Shown piece after piece: positions 7,506 through 25,938 of a DNA stretch of 64,000 nucleotides. Each line of letters starts with the position of its first letter. Within the stretch, counting starts at the first letter, position 1. Made by a program: the position numbers and the translations under genes. Location: positions 558,001 to 622,000 of the forward strand of contig NZ_CP039249.1 in assembly GCF_004795835.1 (NCBI RefSeq), in the 5' to 3' direction. Below the pieces are notes generated by a model. It saw only the letters and a list, made by a program, of their open reading frames with translations. It was not told the DNA's origin and ran no database searches. The DNA is from Sphingomonas sp. PAMC26645 (lineage in GTDB: Bacteria; Pseudomonadota; Alphaproteobacteria; Sphingomonadales; Sphingomonadaceae).

Positions 7506-9565
<2,060 letters not shown>

Positions 9566-9649
9566 GGTGAGCATAGGGGGGTTGGGGTGGGGTGCAATGG
9601 GGAATTTGGGGGTCCTGAGCGGGGGCGAGGCGTTTGTGCTTAGGGTCTG

Positions 9650-18850: not shown

Positions 18851-20017
18851 ATGGCATCGACGATCTCCTGCGACGTTGCGATCGTTGGCGCGGGTTTGGC
18901 CGGCGGGATGATCGCGCTGGCGTTGAAAGCAAAGCATCCGGCGTTGGATGTGCGGCTGATCGACGCCGCGCCGGTGGTCGGCGGCAATCATCTCTGGTCG
19001 TTCTTCGGCAGCGACGTGGCGCAAGGCGATCGCTGGATTGTCGCACCGCTCGTGGTGCATGCGTGGCGCGGATACGATGTGCATTTTCCGGCGCATGCGC
19101 GGACGATCGATGCGACCTATTATTCGATCGAGAGCACGCGGCTCGACCGCGAAGTTCGCCGCGTGCTGCCGCCGCATGCGCTGATGCTGGGGCGGAAGGT
19201 GTCGGGGGCTAGTGCGACCGCGGTGGTGCTGGCGGATGGCGACCGGATCGAAGCGACTGGCGTGATCGACGCGCGGGGGGCGGGCGATCTGTCGCTGCTC
19301 GACCTGGCGTGGCAGAAGTTTCTCGGGCGGGAACTGGCGTTGTCGGTGCCGCATGAGAGTCCGCGGCCGATGGTCATGGATGCGACCATTCCGCAGATTG
19401 ACGGGTATCGGTTCGTCTATTGCCTGCCCTTCTCGCCCGAGCGGATGTTCGTCGAGGACACTTATTATAGCGACACGCCGGATCTCGATATTCCGGTGCT
19501 GGGCGCGCGGATCGACGAGTATGTCACGGCACGCGGCTGGTCGGTCGAGAGCGTCGTTCGCGAGGAGTCCGGCGTGTTGCCGGTCGCGATGGGGGGGGAT
19601 TTCGAGGCGTATTGGCGGTCGGGTGGTGCTCGGGTGGCGAAGGCCGGGATGCGCGCGGGAATGTTTCATCCGACCACGGGGTACTCGCTGCCGGACGCGG
19701 TTCGGACCGCTTCCATGCTGGCGGGCCTCGGCGATTTCTCGGGCGCGAAGCTTCACGATGCGACCCACGCGATGGCGCGGGCGACGTGGAAGTCGCGTGG
19801 CTTCTACCGGATGCTCGACACGATGTTGTTCCGCGCCGCCGAACCGGAGGAACGCTACCGCATCCTCGAGCGCTTCTACCGCCTCTCCCCCTCGCTCATC
19901 GGCCGTTTCTATGCCGGGCGCTCGACGCTTTCCGACAAGGCACGCGTTCTTACCGGCAAGCCCCCCGTCCCCATCGTGCGCGCCGTCCGCGCCATCGCAG
20001 GCAGTATGTCATTATGA
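18851..20017 (+). CDS. crtY: Lycopene beta-cyclase CrtY
   Basis: The 388-residue flavoprotein should close both ends of lycopene to form beta-carotene. It has an N-terminal FAD-binding Rossmann motif VAIVGAGLAGGMIAL, the cyclase motif RLIDAAPVVGGNHLWSFF, the DARGAG segment near residue 140, and the late blocks FEAYWRSGG and GMFHPTTGYSLPDAVR. The start MASTISCD was chosen because TCGGAGGC precedes it; the frame is open 17 codons further up. Its stop overlaps the crtI ATG by four bases (ATGA), indicating coupled translation of the carotenoid genes. Confidence 0.95.
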   Translation: MASTISCDVAIVGAGLAGGMIALALKAKHPALDVRLIDAAPVVGGNHLWSFFGSDVAQGDRWIVAPLVVHAWRGYDVHFPAHARTIDATYYSIESTRLDREVRRVLPPHALMLGRKVSGASATAVVLADGDRIEATGVIDARGAGDLSLLDLAWQKFLGRELALSVPHESPRPMVMDATIPQIDGYRFVYCLPFSPERMFVEDTYYSDTPDLDIPVLGARIDEYVTARGWSVESVVREESGVLPVAMGGDFEAYWRSGGARVAKAGMRAGMFHPTTGYSLPDAVRTASMLAGLGDFSGAKLHDATHAMARATWKSRGFYRMLDTMLFRAAEPEERYRILERFYRLSPSLIGRFYAGRSTLSDKARVLTGKPPVPIVRAVRAIAGSMSL

Positions 20018-21489
20018 AGACCGCAATAGTCATCGGCGCAGGTTTCGGCGGGCTGGCGCTCGCGATCCGGCTGCAATCCGCGGGCGTGCAGACGACGATC
20101 GTCGAGAGCCGCGACAAGCCGGGCGGGCGTGGGTATTTCTGGGAGCACGACGGCTTCACGTTCGATGCGGGGCCGACGGTCATCACCGATCCGGACTGCC
20201 TGCGCGAGCTGTGGGCGCTGACCGGGCGGGACATGAGCGAGGACGTGACGCTCGATCCGGTGCTGCCGTTCTACCGGCTGAACTGGCCCGACGGGACGAA
20301 TTTCGACTATACCAACGACGACGTGCAGATGCGCGCCGAGATCGAAAAGCTGCATCCCGGCGACTGGGCGGGATACGAGAAGTTCCTGCAATATTCGGCG
20401 GGGGTGTTCCACGAGGGCTATGAGAAGCTCGGCCATGTCGCGTTCCTCGACTTCGGGTCGATGATCAAGGCGGCGCCTGCGCTGGCGAAATACCAGGCGT
20501 GGCGGTCGGTCTATTCGATCGTGTCGAGCTTCGTGAAGTCGGAGAAGCTGCGCGAGGCGTTGAGCTTCCACACGCTGCTGGTCGGCGGCAACCCGATGAC
20601 GACGAGCGCGATCTATGCGCTGATCCACAAGCTGGAGCGTGATGGCGGGGTGTGGTTCGCGCGCGGCGGGACCAACCGGCTGGTGGCGGCGCTGGTGACG
20701 CAGTTCGAGCGGCTGGGCGGCGTGCTACGGCTCGACGATCCGGTGACGTCGATCGAGACTCTGGGCGATCGTGCGACCGGCGTGACCTGCGCGAGCGGCT
20801 GGTCGGGTCAGGCGGATGCGATCGCGGCGAACAGCGACATCATGCACACCTATCGCGACCTGCTGGCCACGTCGCGCAGCGCCAAGCGGAAAACCGGGTC
20901 GCTCGAGCGGAAGAAATATTCGCCGTCGCTGTTCGTGGTGCATTTCGGGATCAAGGGCACGTGGCCGGGCATCCCGCACCACATGATCCTGTTCGGGCCG
21001 CGCTATAAGGGGCTGCTCGAGGACATTTACGACCACGGCGTGCTGAGCGAGGACTTCTCGCTGTACCTGCATCACCCGACCGTGACCGATCCTTCTTTGG
21101 CGCCGGAGGGGCATTCGACGTTCTATGCGTTGGCGCCGGTGCCGCATCTCGGGAAATTCCCTGTCGACTGGGACGAGATCGCGCCGATTCTGGAGAAGCG
21201 CATCCTCGACGAGATCGGACGGCGGTTGATCCCGGATATCCATGAGCGGATCGTGACGAAATTCTCGTACGCGCCGAAGGATTTCGCGGAGGATCTCAAT
21301 GCGCATCTGGGTAGCGCATTCTCGCTGGAGCCGGTGCTGACGCAGAGCGCGTATTTCCGTGTGCATAATCGCGACGAGCATATTCCGAATTTGTACTTCG
21401 TGGGCGCTGGAACGCATCCGGGTGCTGGCATTCCGGGGGTTGTCGGGAGTGCGAAGGCTACGGCGGCACTGATGCTCGGCGAACAATAG
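20014..21489 (+). CDS. crtI: Phytoene desaturase CrtI
   Basis: The 491-residue FAD enzyme should introduce four double bonds into phytoene to give lycopene. The N-terminus has the dinucleotide fold VIGAGFGGLALAIRLQSAG followed by KPGGRGYFWEHDGFTFDAGP. The C-terminus has the bacterial carotenoid desaturase signature YFVGAGTHPGAGIPGVVGSA. The length is that of normal bacterial CrtI. It overlaps crtY and is separated from crtB by two other genes, which is unusual. Confidence 0.96.
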   Translation: MKTAIVIGAGFGGLALAIRLQSAGVQTTIVESRDKPGGRGYFWEHDGFTFDAGPTVITDPDCLRELWALTGRDMSEDVTLDPVLPFYRLNWPDGTNFDYTNDDVQMRAEIEKLHPGDWAGYEKFLQYSAGVFHEGYEKLGHVAFLDFGSMIKAAPALAKYQAWRSVYSIVSSFVKSEKLREALSFHTLLVGGNPMTTSAIYALIHKLERDGGVWFARGGTNRLVAALVTQFERLGGVLRLDDPVTSIETLGDRATGVTCASGWSGQADAIAANSDIMHTYRDLLATSRSAKRKTGSLERKKYSPSLFVVHFGIKGTWPGIPHHMILFGPRYKGLLEDIYDHGVLSEDFSLYLHHPTVTDPSLAPEGHSTFYALAPVPHLGKFPVDWDEIAPILEKRILDEIGRRLIPDIHERIVTKFSYAPKDFAEDLNAHLGSAFSLEPVLTQSAYFRVHNRDEHIPNLYFVGAGTHPGAGIPGVVGSAKATAALMLGEQ

Positions 21490-21536
21490 GCTTAACAAGC
21501 TTTTATCGTCTGATAGAGTTATCCGAAACGGTGTGA

Positions 21537-21542: not shown

Positions 21543-21675
21543 TCTGTTATTTGACGATACTTCCTCGGAAGGTCGTGACTAACTCCGTAATGGCGGCATC
21601 AAGAGTAGATGCCGGCAGCCATCATTCTAGCATCCCTTTAGACCGGATTTTGGTCAGCAAAAGAGGGGATGCATC

Positions 21676-21948
21676 ATGGCCATTACTGTCAAGAGCGTGG
21701 ACTGGAACGGTATCAGCAGCGACGAGCAGCAGAAGATCCGCGACATCATCGGCAAGAACTTCGACGGACAGACGGTCGAGGTCGGCGAAACGCCCCTGGA
21801 GGCAAACGGCGGCAACGCCTGCACGACGGCCTGCTCTATCGCGCAGCAGGCCGCCCAGGCCGCATGTAGCCTCCTGCCTTGGCCTGCGAGCACGGTCTGC
21901 AATTTTGCCGCCGAGAAGGCCGGTGATTTTTGTCGGAGCCAGTGCTGA
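21676..21948 (+). CDS. Cysteine-patterned small peptide, putative secreted helical hairpin
   Basis: The 90-residue product has a strong Shine-Dalgarno GAGGGG seven bases before its ATG. Residues 1-44 are acidic and cysteine-free (DWNGISSDEQQKIRDIIGKN region). After Gly45-Gly46 the C-terminal half holds cysteines at 49, 53, 64, 75, 86 and 90. The spacing is CX3C-X10-C-X10-C-X10-CX3C, symmetric about residue 69.5, where Pro68-Trp69-Pro70 would make a turn. This suggests an antiparallel helical hairpin with nested disulfides (49-90, 53-86, 64-75), as in alpha-hairpinin-type peptides, possibly released from a leader at the GG. The family is not recognised and no peptide-processing or C39 exporter gene is adjacent. 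Confidence 0.75.
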   Translation: MAITVKSVDWNGISSDEQQKIRDIIGKNFDGQTVEVGETPLEANGGNACTTACSIAQQAAQAACSLLPWPASTVCNFAAEKAGDFCRSQC

Positions 21949-22041: not shown

Positions 22042-22623
22042 ATGAAACGTCTTGCTGTGTATTGCGGGTCGGCGACGCCGGCTGATCCTGTCTATATCGA
22101 GGGCGCTCGGGCGCTGGGATTGGCTTTTGCCGAGCGGGGGATTGGCCTCGTTTATGGCGGCGGGCGGACCGGGCTCATGGGTGCGATCGCGGATGGGGCG
22201 CTTGAGGGCGGCGGCGAGGTGATCGGCGTCATTCCGCAGGCGCTGGTCGATGCGGAGGTCGCGCACCGGGGGCTTACCGAGTTGCACGTCGTCAGCGGCA
22301 TGCATCAGCGCAAGCAGATGTTTACCGATCTCTCCGACGGGTTCGTGACGATCCCGGGTGGGACGGGGACTATGGACGAGCTGTGGGAGGCGCTGAGCTG
22401 GGCGCAGCTTGGGTATCATGCGGATCCGGTCGGGTTGCTCAATACGGCTGGGTATTATGATCACCTGATCGCGTTCTGGGAGAAGATGGGCGAGGTTGGT
22501 TTTTTGCGGCCGCAGCACCGGGATCTGCTGATCGTGGCGGATACGCTGGATGTGCTGCTCGACCGGATGGCGAGACATGTGCCGACGCAGCCGATCGTGC
22601 GGATGAACGCGTCGGATTTGTGA
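22042..22623 (+). CDS. LOG family cytokinin/nucleotide phosphoribohydrolase
   Basis: The 193-residue protein has the lysine-decarboxylase-like Rossmann motif of the LOG family. YCGSATPADP is near the start, GLVYGGGRTGLMGAIADGAL binds the nucleotide, and PGGTGTMDE is the diagnostic active-site motif. SGMHQRKQMF precedes it. These enzymes release the base or ribose 5-phosphate from nucleoside 5'-monophosphates; in bacteria the true substrate is often AMP or a cytokinin nucleotide. It sits between crtI and crtB on the same strand, without an obvious carotenoid role. Confidence 0.9.
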   Translation: MKRLAVYCGSATPADPVYIEGARALGLAFAERGIGLVYGGGRTGLMGAIADGALEGGGEVIGVIPQALVDAEVAHRGLTELHVVSGMHQRKQMFTDLSDGFVTIPGGTGTMDELWEALSWAQLGYHADPVGLLNTAGYYDHLIAFWEKMGEVGFLRPQHRDLLIVADTLDVLLDRMARHVPTQPIVRMNASDL

Positions 22624-22735: not shown

Positions 22736-23683
22736 ATGAGCCAGGCACTCCCGAGCCGCGAGGCGATCGTCGCGACCGCGCATGAGTCGATTTCGCGGGG
22801 GTCGAAGAGTTTTGCCGCTGCCAGCCTGTTGTTCGACAAGCCTACGCGGGAGCGGGCTTGGCTGCTGTATGCGTGGTGCCGGCGGTGCGATGATATTGCC
22901 GATGGGCAGGATCATGGGCACGGGATGACCGTGGTCGAGGACGCTCCGGCGCGGTTGGTGGCTTTGTCGGCGATGACCGAGCAGGCGCTCGCGGGGGAAG
23001 TCGTCGGCGAGCCAGCGTTCGATGCGTTGCGGATCTTCGCGGCCGAGACTCGGCTGCCGAAGCGGTTCGCGCGCGATCTGGTCGAGGGGTTTGCACTGGA
23101 TGCGCGCGAGTGGCGGCCGCGGTCGGAGAACGACCTGTACAAATATTGCTACCATGTCGCGGGCGTCGTGGGGTGCATGATGGCGATCGCGATGGGCGTC
23201 GATCCCGAGGACGAGGACACGCTCGACCGCGCGTGTGACCTGGGGATGGCGTTCCAGCTCGCCAATATCGCGCGCGATGTCGAGGAGGATGACCGGGTCG
23301 GCCGGTGCTACCTGCCTGAGGACTGGCTGGTCGAGATGGACTTTCCGCCGGGTCAGCACATGAAGCCGCCGTTCCGATCTCGCCTCGCGGTGTTGACGAA
23401 GCGGATGGCGGATCGGGCTGCGGCGTTCGAGGCTAGTGCGCGGGAGGGGACGCCGGCGCTATCGTTCCGTTCGGCGTGGGCGGTGTTGTCCGCGGCGGGG
23501 ATCTATGGCGCTATCGGAAGGACCGTGGCGGCGCGCGGGGAGCACGCTTGGGATCACCGGGTGACGACGTCTGGGATGCAGAAGGTTGGGTTTATCGTGA
23601 CGGCGGCGCGGGAAGCTGCGCGGCGGGATACGCTGTATCCGCGGACAGCGCGGGATGCGCGGCTGTGGACACGGCCTCGCTGA
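22736..23683 (+). CDS. crtB: Phytoene synthase CrtB
   Basis: The 315-residue enzyme condenses two geranylgeranyl diphosphates to phytoene, the first carotenoid step. Both aspartate-rich motifs are present: CRRCDDIADGQ near residue 47 and NIARDVEEDDRVGRCYLPED near residue 178, which also carries the YLP signature. YCYHVAGVVGCMM is the second family signature. The start at MSQALPSRE was chosen from homology and because upstream codons encode the palindromic repeat. The TGTTC-to-AACTAG repeat arm supplies its ribosome-binding site. With crtY and crtI it completes a beta-carotene pathway. Confidence 0.95.
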   Translation: MSQALPSREAIVATAHESISRGSKSFAAASLLFDKPTRERAWLLYAWCRRCDDIADGQDHGHGMTVVEDAPARLVALSAMTEQALAGEVVGEPAFDALRIFAAETRLPKRFARDLVEGFALDAREWRPRSENDLYKYCYHVAGVVGCMMAIAMGVDPEDEDTLDRACDLGMAFQLANIARDVEEDDRVGRCYLPEDWLVEMDFPPGQHMKPPFRSRLAVLTKRMADRAAAFEASAREGTPALSFRSAWAVLSAAGIYGAIGRTVAARGEHAWDHRVTTSGMQKVGFIVTAAREAARRDTLYPRTARDARLWTRPR

Positions 23684-23987: not shown

Positions 23988-24108
23988 TTCATTCTCCAGT
24001 GGATCGCCGTGGCCGACATCGGACACGGTAATTAAAGCGACGAAGTGGCAGGATTGTTCCCCCAACTGCTTTCGCCGGGGCTTGACTGCGCCTACATCGC
24101 ATCGATCC

Positions 24109-25938
24109 ATGCCCCCTGACACCTACACCTCCACCCGCGCGGACCAGCCCTTGCTGCCGACGCTTCGCCGCTTCCTGCCGTTCCTGTGGCCGGCGGGGCA
24201 GCCCAGGCTGAAGGCGCGGATCGTCGTCGCGATGCTGCTCGTGATCGCGTCGAAGCTGATCCAGGTCTTTGGCGCCGCGTTCACGCTGAAATACGCGGTC
24301 GACCGGATGGCGGGGAACGATCGCACCGCGCTGACGCTCGTCGTGTTGCTGGTGGTTGGGTACGCGGCGTCGCGGTTCGGGACGACGCTGTTCGACAATC
24401 TGCGCAACGCGGTGTTCGAGCGCGTCGGGCAGGACGCGTCGCGGCGACTGGCGGCACAGGTCTTTCGCCATCTGCATGCGCTGAGCCTCGATTTTCACCT
24501 GTCCAGGCGGACTGGCGCGGTCACCAAGGTAGTCGAGCGCGGCACCAAGAGCATCGATACGATGCTGTATTTTCTGCTGTTCAACATCGCGCCCACCGTG
24601 TTTGAACTGGTGCTGGTGCTGGGACTGTTCTGGACCAAGTTCGGCTGGCCGCTGGTCGTCGCGACCGTGGTGATGGTGGTCGGTTATATCGCGTTCACGC
24701 GGATGGTGACCGACTGGCGCAATGCGTTGCGTGCGCGGATGAACGACCTCGATACCGGCGCGGTCGCGCATGCGGTGGATTCGCTGCTGAACTTCGAGAC
24801 GGTGAAGTATTTCGGCGCGGAGGAGCGCGAGGCGCGGCGCTACGACAGCGCGATCACCGCCTATTCCGAGGCGGCGGTGAAGAGCGAGAATTCGCTCGCG
24901 TGGTTGAACCTCGGCCAGGCGCTGATCACCAATGTGATGCTGGCGGGCGGCATGGGGTTCGTCGTGTGGCGGTGGAGCCGCGGCGAGGCGTCGGCGGGCG
25001 ACGTGGTGTTTGTGTCGACGCTGCTGGCGCAGTTGTTTCGGCCGCTCGACCTGTTGGGGATGGTGTATCGGACGATCCGGCAGGGTGCGCTCGACATGGC
25101 GGCGATGTTCGACCTGATCGATACGCCCGCGACCGTGGTCGATGCGCCGGGTGCGCCGGCGCTGGCGGTGAGCGCGGGGCATGTCCGGTTCGAAAACGTA
25201 TCGTTCGGATACGATGCCGGACGGCCGATCCTTCGCGACCTGGAGCTGGACGTGCCTGCCGGATCGACACTGGCCGTGGTCGGGCCGTCGGGTGCGGGCA
25301 AGTCGACGCTCGCGCGATTGCTGTACCGGTTTTACGATCTGACAGGCGGGCGGATTACCGTCGATGGGCAGGATATCGCGCAGGTGCGGCAGGCTTCGCT
25401 GCGGGCTGCGATCGGCATCGTGCCGCAGGATACGGTGCTGTTTAACGACACGATCGGCTACAACATCGCCTATGGGCGCGAGGGTGCGGAGATGCCGGAG
25501 GTCGAGGTTGCCGCCAAGGGCGCGGCGATCGCCGGGTTCATCGAGCGCCAGCCGCTGGGATATGAAACGCGCGTGGGCGAGCGTGGGTTGAAGCTGTCGG
25601 GTGGCGAGAAGCAGCGCGTGGCGATCGCGCGGACTTTGTTGAAGAACCCGCCGATCCTGATCCTAGACGAGGCGACGTCGGCGCTGGACAGCCGGACCGA
25701 GGCTGAGATTCTCGATACGCTAGAGGCGATCGAGCGTGGGCGGACGACGATCGTGATCGCGCACCGGCTGTCCACGGTGGTTCATGCGGACCAGATCGTC
25801 GTGCTGGAGGCGGGGCGGATCGTCGAGAAGGGGACGCATGGCGCGCTGCTGCGGCAGGGCGGCGTGTATGCGGAGATGTGGAACCGGCAGGCGCAGGAGC
25901 GCGCCGGGGATGATGATGGGGCGCTGGCGGCGGAGTAA
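24109..25938 (+). CDS. Atm1/HMT1-type ABC exporter
   Basis: The 609-residue half transporter has an N-terminal membrane domain with six hydrophobic helices (from ARIVVAMLLVIASKLIQVFG to GQALITNVMLAGGMGFVVWR). The hallmark FHLSRRTGAVTKVVERGTKS of the Atm1 branch is present. The nucleotide-binding domain has Walker A VVGPSGAGKSTLARLLYRF, signature LSGGEKQRVAIARTLLK, Walker B ILILDEATSALD and the H-loop IAHRLS. Relatives export glutathione-metal or sulfur compounds for iron-sulfur assembly or metal tolerance. ATG 24109 was preferred to a TTG nine codons upstream. It acts as a homodimer in the inner membrane. Confidence 0.92.
   Translation: MPPDTYTSTRADQPLLPTLRRFLPFLWPAGQPRLKARIVVAMLLVIASKLIQVFGAAFTLKYAVDRMAGNDRTALTLVVLLVVGYAASRFGTTLFDNLRNAVFERVGQDASRRLAAQVFRHLHALSLDFHLSRRTGAVTKVVERGTKSIDTMLYFLLFNIAPTVFELVLVLGLFWTKFGWPLVVATVVMVVGYIAFTRMVTDWRNALRARMNDLDTGAVAHAVDSLLNFETVKYFGAEEREARRYDSAITAYSEAAVKSENSLAWLNLGQALITNVMLAGGMGFVVWRWSRGEASAGDVVFVSTLLAQLFRPLDLLGMVYRTIRQGALDMAAMFDLIDTPATVVDAPGAPALAVSAGHVRFENVSFGYDAGRPILRDLELDVPAGSTLAVVGPSGAGKSTLARLLYRFYDLTGGRITVDGQDIAQVRQASLRAAIGIVPQDTVLFNDTIGYNIAYGREGAEMPEVEVAAKGAAIAGFIERQPLGYETRVGERGLKLSGGEKQRVAIARTLLKNPPILILDEATSALDSRTEAEILDTLEAIERGRTTIVIAHRLSTVVHADQIVVLEAGRIVEKGTHGALLRQGGVYAEMWNRQAQERAGDDDGALAAE

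Follow-up and report, generated by a model that had tools for sequence, protein, structure and literature searches.

The window, i.e., the whole 64-kb stretch of DNA analysed here, carries a short open reading frame (ORF) between crtI and a LOG/TIGR00730 gene, which is itself followed by crtB (Table 1). Its product is a 90-residue peptide with six cysteines, found in the translation at residues 49, 53, 64, 75, 86 and 90, i.e., separated by steps of 4-11-11-11-4. An earlier note on this DNA had given the frame, the coordinates, the cysteine positions and the steps exactly. This ORF is a real protein gene. Indeed, close orthologues are found at 89–99% identity, overall NG86 dN/dS lies between 0.09 and 0.49 (ten pairs computed, some saturated), and in 10/10 Sphingomonas loci the start codon follows a purine-rich stretch that ends in GGAT and resembles a Shine-Dalgarno sequence (GAGGGG here). 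The gene is under purifying selection; for the leader taken separately, dN/dS rises to 0.81 in a single diverged pair, and positive selection was not seen on the whole gene in any of the ten pairs (all at or below 0.49). The gene's own Shine-Dalgarno, reported in the earlier note, is present, and independent expression of the gene is supported.

Table 1. Features of the peptide gene and of its surroundings, in window coordinates.
Feature	Position	Strand	Description or support
crtI	20014..21489		upstream neighbour
Upstream box 1, CCGAAACGG	21523..21531	+	comparison of loci
Upstream box 2, CCGTAATGG	21585..21593	+	62 bp after box 1; comparison of loci
-10-like hexamer TAGCAT	21628..21633	+	34 nt downstream of box 2, a distance conserved in 10/10 Sphingomonas loci
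Shine-Dalgarno-like GAGGGG	21663..21668	+	purine-rich run at same place across loci
Precursor ORF	21676..21948	+	90 aa; orthologues and dN/dS
N-terminal leader-like half	21676..21819	+	residues 1–48; net charge -4; no Cys
Arm 1, C-x3-C-x10-C	21820..21867	+	residues 49–64; 84/95 keep both arms; helical periodicity
Turn, SLLPWPASTV	21868..21897	+	residues 65–74; length 7–11 across the family
Arm 2, C-x10-C-x3-C	21898..21945	+	residues 75–90; arm conservation; helical periodicity
Hairpin 3' of the stop codon	21952..21990	+	strong (z = -4.0), without a T run
LOG/TIGR00730 gene	22042..22623		downstream neighbour
crtB	22736..23683		
ABC transporter	24082..25938		

The gene has its own promoter-like element at a fixed spacing. 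A box resembling CCGAAACGG lies exactly 34 nt upstream of a TA(G/C)C(A/C/G)T hexamer in 10/10 Sphingomonas loci, this degenerate pattern having been picked after inspection of the loci, some of which are near-identical. Outside this element, the intergenic DNA can hardly be aligned between alleles. The window contains the pattern once, counting both strands; in 912 kb, again over both strands, there are 26 occurrences, the set searched being rich in repeated peptide loci. Among the 23 crtI-LOG junctions described below, it is present in all seven that are occupied by the peptide gene and in none of the 16 others; it is absent from seven peptide copies located outside this site. The two upstream boxes are spaced as in the window in loci L006 and L007 and in genome G403, and by 63 bp in G435; box 1 is degenerate or missing in the remaining Sphingomonas loci. 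With one mismatch allowed, G000 (the window's own genome) has two such pairs 62 bp apart, G403 has one and G827 has three, and there is none in G435, G522 or G610; the backward control gives two across the same six genomes. Occurring elsewhere in the genomes, the pair was discarded as a gene-specific mark; a second CCGTATCGG pair, for instance, is found at L039 (G000:C1:203159-203229, reverse). A promoter-scan site at 21492–21519 received no support from conservation, and an upstream hairpin sequestering the Shine-Dalgarno was not significant (z = -1.15). The hairpin located after the stop codon may be the 3' end of the transcript.

The earlier note drew attention to the mirror symmetry of the cysteine array. 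The symmetry is exact in the window peptide and the arms are found family-wide: of 95 sequences, made up of the window, five loci and 89 proteins, 84 keep both arms exactly, which is far more than chance would give. The middle step, on the other hand, is 11 in 54 of these 84 sequences and 12, 10 or 8 in the other 30, i.e., loops of 10 (54 sequences), 11 (25), 9 (4) and 7 (1) residues. Since this step varies from 8 to 12, exact symmetry is ruled out as the selected feature; judging from the alignments, the selected feature is the fixed arms. Loss of the cysteine spacing among homologues, which the note had named as an observation that would count against it, was looked for, and the arms proved to be retained. 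The importance that it gave to the Pro-Trp-Pro turn was not supported, the turn reading LSGPA, LGNPI, LPFGQ or SISGSRS elsewhere. The 11 sequences without the full array comprise four that look truncated or frameshifted (P0012, P0023, P0026 and P0031), three others (P0028, P0030 and P0062) and the distant P0032 to P0035. In a 64-row alignment (A4), a selection that omits the cysteine-loss variants P0028 and P0062 and other rows, among them near-duplicates and all array-lacking records except P0030, the six cysteines are the sole invariant columns.

Homologues were recovered by sequence and profile searches. A single-sequence search found 14 proteins and a 15-row profile 35 (E≤1); with a profile of 29 rows the number rose to 74, none of them above E 1.1e-6. 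Relatives occur in Alpha- and Gammaproteobacteria, in Acidobacteriota and in one Hymenobacter metagenome-assembled genome (MAG), whose host is assigned by binning; the other named carriers are Sphingomonas, Tunturiibacter, Agarivorans and plasmids of Agrobacterium and Paracoccus. The peptide is rare in every genome sample. It was found in 1/397 Sphingomonadaceae genomes with a single-sequence query; in 13/295 genomes of the genus Sphingomonas at E≤0.01, ten of them convincing (E≤2.2e-21) and three (G617, G644 and G680, E 0.005–0.009) excluded from membership as weak; in 2/299 and 3/398 genomes of phylum samples; in 2/199 of the family of G827; and in 1/204 of the family of the Hymenobacter MAG. 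These samples overlap and most of them contain G000, which carries a single copy at E≤10. The counts are lower bounds, since a very divergent copy in G091 (steps 4-11-8-11-4) is matched only by the broadest profile (E 1.2e-4). Three short peptides, P0032, P0033 and P0035, match the profile weakly (E 0.0099, 0.12 and 0.59); they start with MNLPxxSxPVxR, and their C-terminal part has a C..LPWPAS..C turn in common with the family.

Judging from database and literature searches, this family is undescribed and has no name in Pfam or NCBIfam. The window peptide matches no Pfam family and a single NCBIfam row, at 13.1 bits for a cut-off of 225. With 64 members as queries, the best E-values were 0.014 in Pfam (among the best 25 of 33 matches) and 0.0026 in NCBIfam (among the best 25 of 30), both to unrelated families. 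Four of the 64 match Acanthaporin (PF20963) at chance level, far below the curated cut-off (best E 0.14), and the two such matches seen in detail overlie the core. A sequence search of the PDB gave nothing credible, the likeness of the leader to DctP solute-binding proteins being at chance level (best E 0.49). A phage origin was also discarded, a phage search with two members and a viral-contig search with four queries giving no match. In the literature searched, no paper on this family was found.

Several observations argue for the helical hairpin with three nested cysteine pairs that the earlier note had suggested, and such a three-rung ladder, in which the arms would be helices, is well supported and very probable. 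Among 81 distinct arm pairs, the conservation of non-cysteine residues is periodic, with a peak at 97 degrees per residue in arm 1 and at 86 degrees in arm 2 (permutation p for the 90–110 degree window of 0.0008 and 0.0082, respectively). A hairpin would also be expected to combine constant arms with a loop of free length, and this is what the family shows. In the antiparallel register 49-90/53-86/64-75, the inward pairs are A60-A79 and A56-G83, all small residues. Moreover, each of the three full-length cysteine variants alters one nested rung: P0062 lacks C1 and C6 and retains C2 and C5, P0028 lacks C3 and C4 and has gained one new cysteine, giving an odd count (five), and in P0030 both C1 and C6 have moved. 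Rung partners thus change together, which fits nested disulfides, since these require it. Nested pairs represent 3 of the 15 possible ones, so two chance losses would both be nested about 4% of the time. The coupling between the arms favours the same antiparallel register, but weakly (9 of the 12 top pairs lie within four positions of it, for a background of 54%). Mirror correlation of conservation between the arms was not significant (p = 0.26) and was dropped as support. If real, a bacterial helical hairpin of 42 residues held by three nested disulfides would be a very rigid and compact scaffold, present in several phyla.

Two known folds resemble this arrangement. Plant alpha-hairpinins, as described in the available text of PMC11591084, also consist of antiparallel helices with CX3C ends, and their cysteines are sometimes the sole conserved residues. 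Their cores follow CX3C-X4-20-CX3C with four cysteines and CX3CX3C-X4-20-CX3CX3C with six, the latter being a natural example of six cysteines in a helical hairpin (PMC11591084). The present family differs: its third cysteine lies 11 residues, not 4, from its neighbour, i.e., 84/95 sequences read 4-11-n-11-4. It is also bacterial and has a different precursor, and no sequence match was found. Small Tim and other twin CX3C mitochondrial proteins share the twin CX3C motif, whose cysteines form one outer and one inner disulfide. They are proteins of the intermembrane space (PMC3759932, in its available part) with four cysteines, whereas there are six here, and no Tim model appeared among the best 25 of the 33 Pfam matches of the 64 members.

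The N-terminal half of the peptide is, as the earlier note had proposed, free of cysteines, separable from the core and, in the window peptide, acidic. Among 83 members, its mean charge is -2.7 (range -8 to +3) and its charge is lower than that of the core in no more than 60 of them. W10 is nearly invariant across the family; the length of the leader before the core varies. The core has a mean charge of +0.25 and contains on average 31% Ala. Most antimicrobial peptides of the cationic kind differ from such a neutral core. The double-glycine processing also suggested in the note is ruled out, because the motif is unconserved: a Gly-Gly within 15 residues before C1 is present in 15 of 88 members, and even orthologues with 99% identity have NG or SG in its place. 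One member, P0081, possesses a signal-peptide-like N-terminus, followed by the same leader; such a start was not found in the other 87 of the 88 members scanned (in both cases with a crude pattern). It constitutes the sole direct hint of export, the rest of the case coming from the cysteines. If the leader does direct export although its double glycine is not conserved, a processing route not yet known would be implied.

The surroundings of the gene offered no dedicated partner. Beside it in the window, we recognised neither an immunity gene nor a C39-type peptidase nor a modification enzyme, and the window contains no C39-like pattern. Among the 25 matches listed for the nearby ABC transporter (Table 1), those to exporter models of the MsbA, HlyB and NHLM types all score under the curated cut-offs. 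In the 20-kb surroundings of the copies in G1357 and G827, genes are housekeeping-like by eye, and no exporter, immunity or modifying gene was recognised. Hence, across the window, the crtI-LOG junctions and these two genomes, no gene of these kinds was recognised as travelling with the peptide. Class II microcins are likewise small leader peptides of Gram-negative bacteria, some with disulfides (PMC13174018, available part), but they are defined by a double-glycine leader with a type I secretion system or a peptidase alongside. Here, the double glycine is not conserved, and neither a type I secretion gene nor an immunity gene was recognised alongside.

Export of the peptide and formation of its disulfides are likely. 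The opposite view is that of an intracellular or periplasmic thiol protein, whose twin CX3C ends would serve as a redox switch or as a binding site for zinc or copper, and whose N-terminal half would be a permanent domain. The near-absence of signal-peptide-like starts would be expected for such a protein, His is common at position 80 (39/81), and reduced small Tim twin-CX3C proteins bind zinc via all four cysteines (PMC3759932, available part). On the contrary, the variant P0062, by losing C1 and C6 and keeping C2 and C5, would have a broken four-cysteine site and a plausible disulfide left, and P0081 has its signal-peptide-like start. The patchy presence of the gene and its very divergent alleles would also be odd for a metal handler, and we consider this view unlikely.

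This patchiness is best seen at the crtI-LOG site. We compared LOG loci in the best 30 of 189 positive genomes, 23 of which have crtI upstream. Among the 18 nearest junctions (LOG at least 95% identical, G000 included), seven carry the peptide gene and 11 are empty, with 190–205 bp between the two genes. In the 10 of these 11 that were aligned, an imperfect inverted repeat takes the place of the peptide gene. This repeat (L053-L058, L060, L062, L064 and L065) is made of GCGGAG-type words and is REP- or MITE-like; part of the same stretch also precedes the peptide gene in G403 (L018). Since the peptide gene is absent from 11 of the 18 junctions and sits elsewhere in other genomes, its functional membership of the carotenoid cluster, inside which the earlier note had placed it, is not supported, and a carotenoid role was rejected as a simple reading. 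Occupied junctions carry very different alleles. Between the window and G403, crtI, LOG and crtB are 99%, 98% and 96% identical and the peptide 40%; between the window and L009, the corresponding values are 87%, 85%, 77% and 63% (parts of crtI and crtB in both cases). More generally, alleles with 40–46% identity lie between flanks with 91–99% identity. Replacement or import of alleles would be the simplest reading of this mismatch. Evolution at the site is probably conflict-like, presence that varies between close relatives being frequent among competition weapons and signals.

Such alleles could indeed be pherotypes, the peptide being a secreted signal read by relatives. The near-identity of the flanks around alleles of 40–46% identity and the promoter-like element at exact spacing would suit a signal, but no receptor or regulator gene accompanies the peptide in the crtI-LOG junction, and we hold this reading to be rather improbable.

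The reading that we prefer, to which we give slightly less than an even chance as a whole, is that the product of the ORF is the precursor of a three-rung hairpin peptide that leaves the cell and is most likely bacteriocin-like. The acidic N-terminal half, of about 48 residues, would serve as a leader, maintaining the peptide in a soluble, inactive state and targeting it for export. The remaining 42 residues would form a pair of antiparallel helices in close contact through Ala and Gly, stapled in a ladder-like way by the nested disulfides 49-90, 53-86 and 64-75; these bonds would be made once the peptide has been exported, in the periplasm or outside. Neutral and Ala-rich, the mature hairpin would most likely target the envelope of related bacteria that compete with the producer, much as gallocin A and other hairpin bacteriocins stapled by disulfides do. 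We infer export, cleavage, disulfides and antagonistic activity. In favour of this reading also count the members carried on Agrobacterium and Paracoccus plasmids, the two diverged copies in G1357 and the second small cysteine peptide beside the Paracoccus member. Against it speak the lack of a recognised immunity gene, C39-type peptidase or modification enzyme in the surroundings covered, the missing sign of positive selection, the neutral core, the 87 of 88 members without a signal-peptide-like start, the leader's charge in the members where it is not the more acidic half, the weakness of the coupling between the arms, their non-significant mirror correlation and the odd cysteine count of P0028. 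A bacteriocin-like role is, by analogy, the most likely single function, since presence/absence and divergent alleles fit competition and since stapled hairpin bacteriocins exist. Tentatively, and with less assurance, one may see here a trans-phylum class of exported three-rung hairpin peptides that has a leader type of its own, serves in the rivalry of closely related strains and is maintained as alleles swappable at a fixed chromosomal site.

The comparison with gallocin A is instructive on both sides. In the available text of PMC10100652, its two peptides (GllA1 and GllA2, class IIb) are modelled as helical hairpins whose disulfides are required for activity. As we propose for the present family, a leader precedes a core that is read as a disulfide-closed helical hairpin. 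The pairing may also have counterparts in some relatives: G1357 carries two hairpin genes side by side, and in Paracoccus the companion is another cysteine hairpin-like peptide. Gallocin peptides are Gram-positive, have one disulfide and a Gly-Gly leader, and are encoded in an operon with an immunity gene (PMC10100652, available part). The family described here, by contrast, has three cysteine pairs, no immunity gene recognised alongside and no conserved Gly-Gly cleavage site, as counted above.

Another possibility, a quite improbable one, is an envelope protein rich in Ala, with a structural or stress role in desiccation, cold or surface life. The Ala content of the core would agree with it, as would two carriers that, by name alone, come from cold habitats (Tunturiibacter gelidoferens and Paracoccus sp. 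Arc7-R13). But the most invariant Ala occupy predicted packing positions, although Ala is common elsewhere too, and presence/absence between siblings argues in the other direction. That the ORF is a RiPP precursor, whose cysteines are turned into thioethers or other enzyme-made links, is very improbable: the leader/core layout and the LPWPAS-like turn behind a different N-terminus in P0032, P0033 and P0035 (at weak E-values) would suit it, but neither the neighbourhood of the gene in the window nor, by eye, that in two other genomes showed a recognisable modification enzyme, and the arms contain no invariant Ser or Thr.

For the bacteriocin-like reading and for signalling alike, the crtI-LOG siblings constitute natural comparisons, since with near-identical flanks they carry one allele, another allele or nothing. 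These comparisons make self/non-self killing or signalling directly testable.

Copies located outside this site present their own particularities. The two copies in G1357 are very different and arranged head to head. On the Paracoccus plasmid (L044, 1375–1599), the gene directly upstream of the family member encodes a 74-residue peptide ending in GCELKC-x10-CRVFCG, i.e., CX3C-X10-CX3C, with no credible Pfam or NCBIfam match. In G827, the copy beside thiC (L023, 1501–1788) has a TGA that exactly replaces the first cysteine (Cys49), the rest of the frame being intact. Selenocysteine was ruled out, as the genome has no SelB above cut-off (best match 185.8 bits for a cut-off of 242.25, in a 397-residue frame), so this TGA is probably a nonsense mutation. 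Lastly, the window itself contains a TPP riboswitch (RF00059, 61.6 bits) at 9460–9568 on the minus strand.
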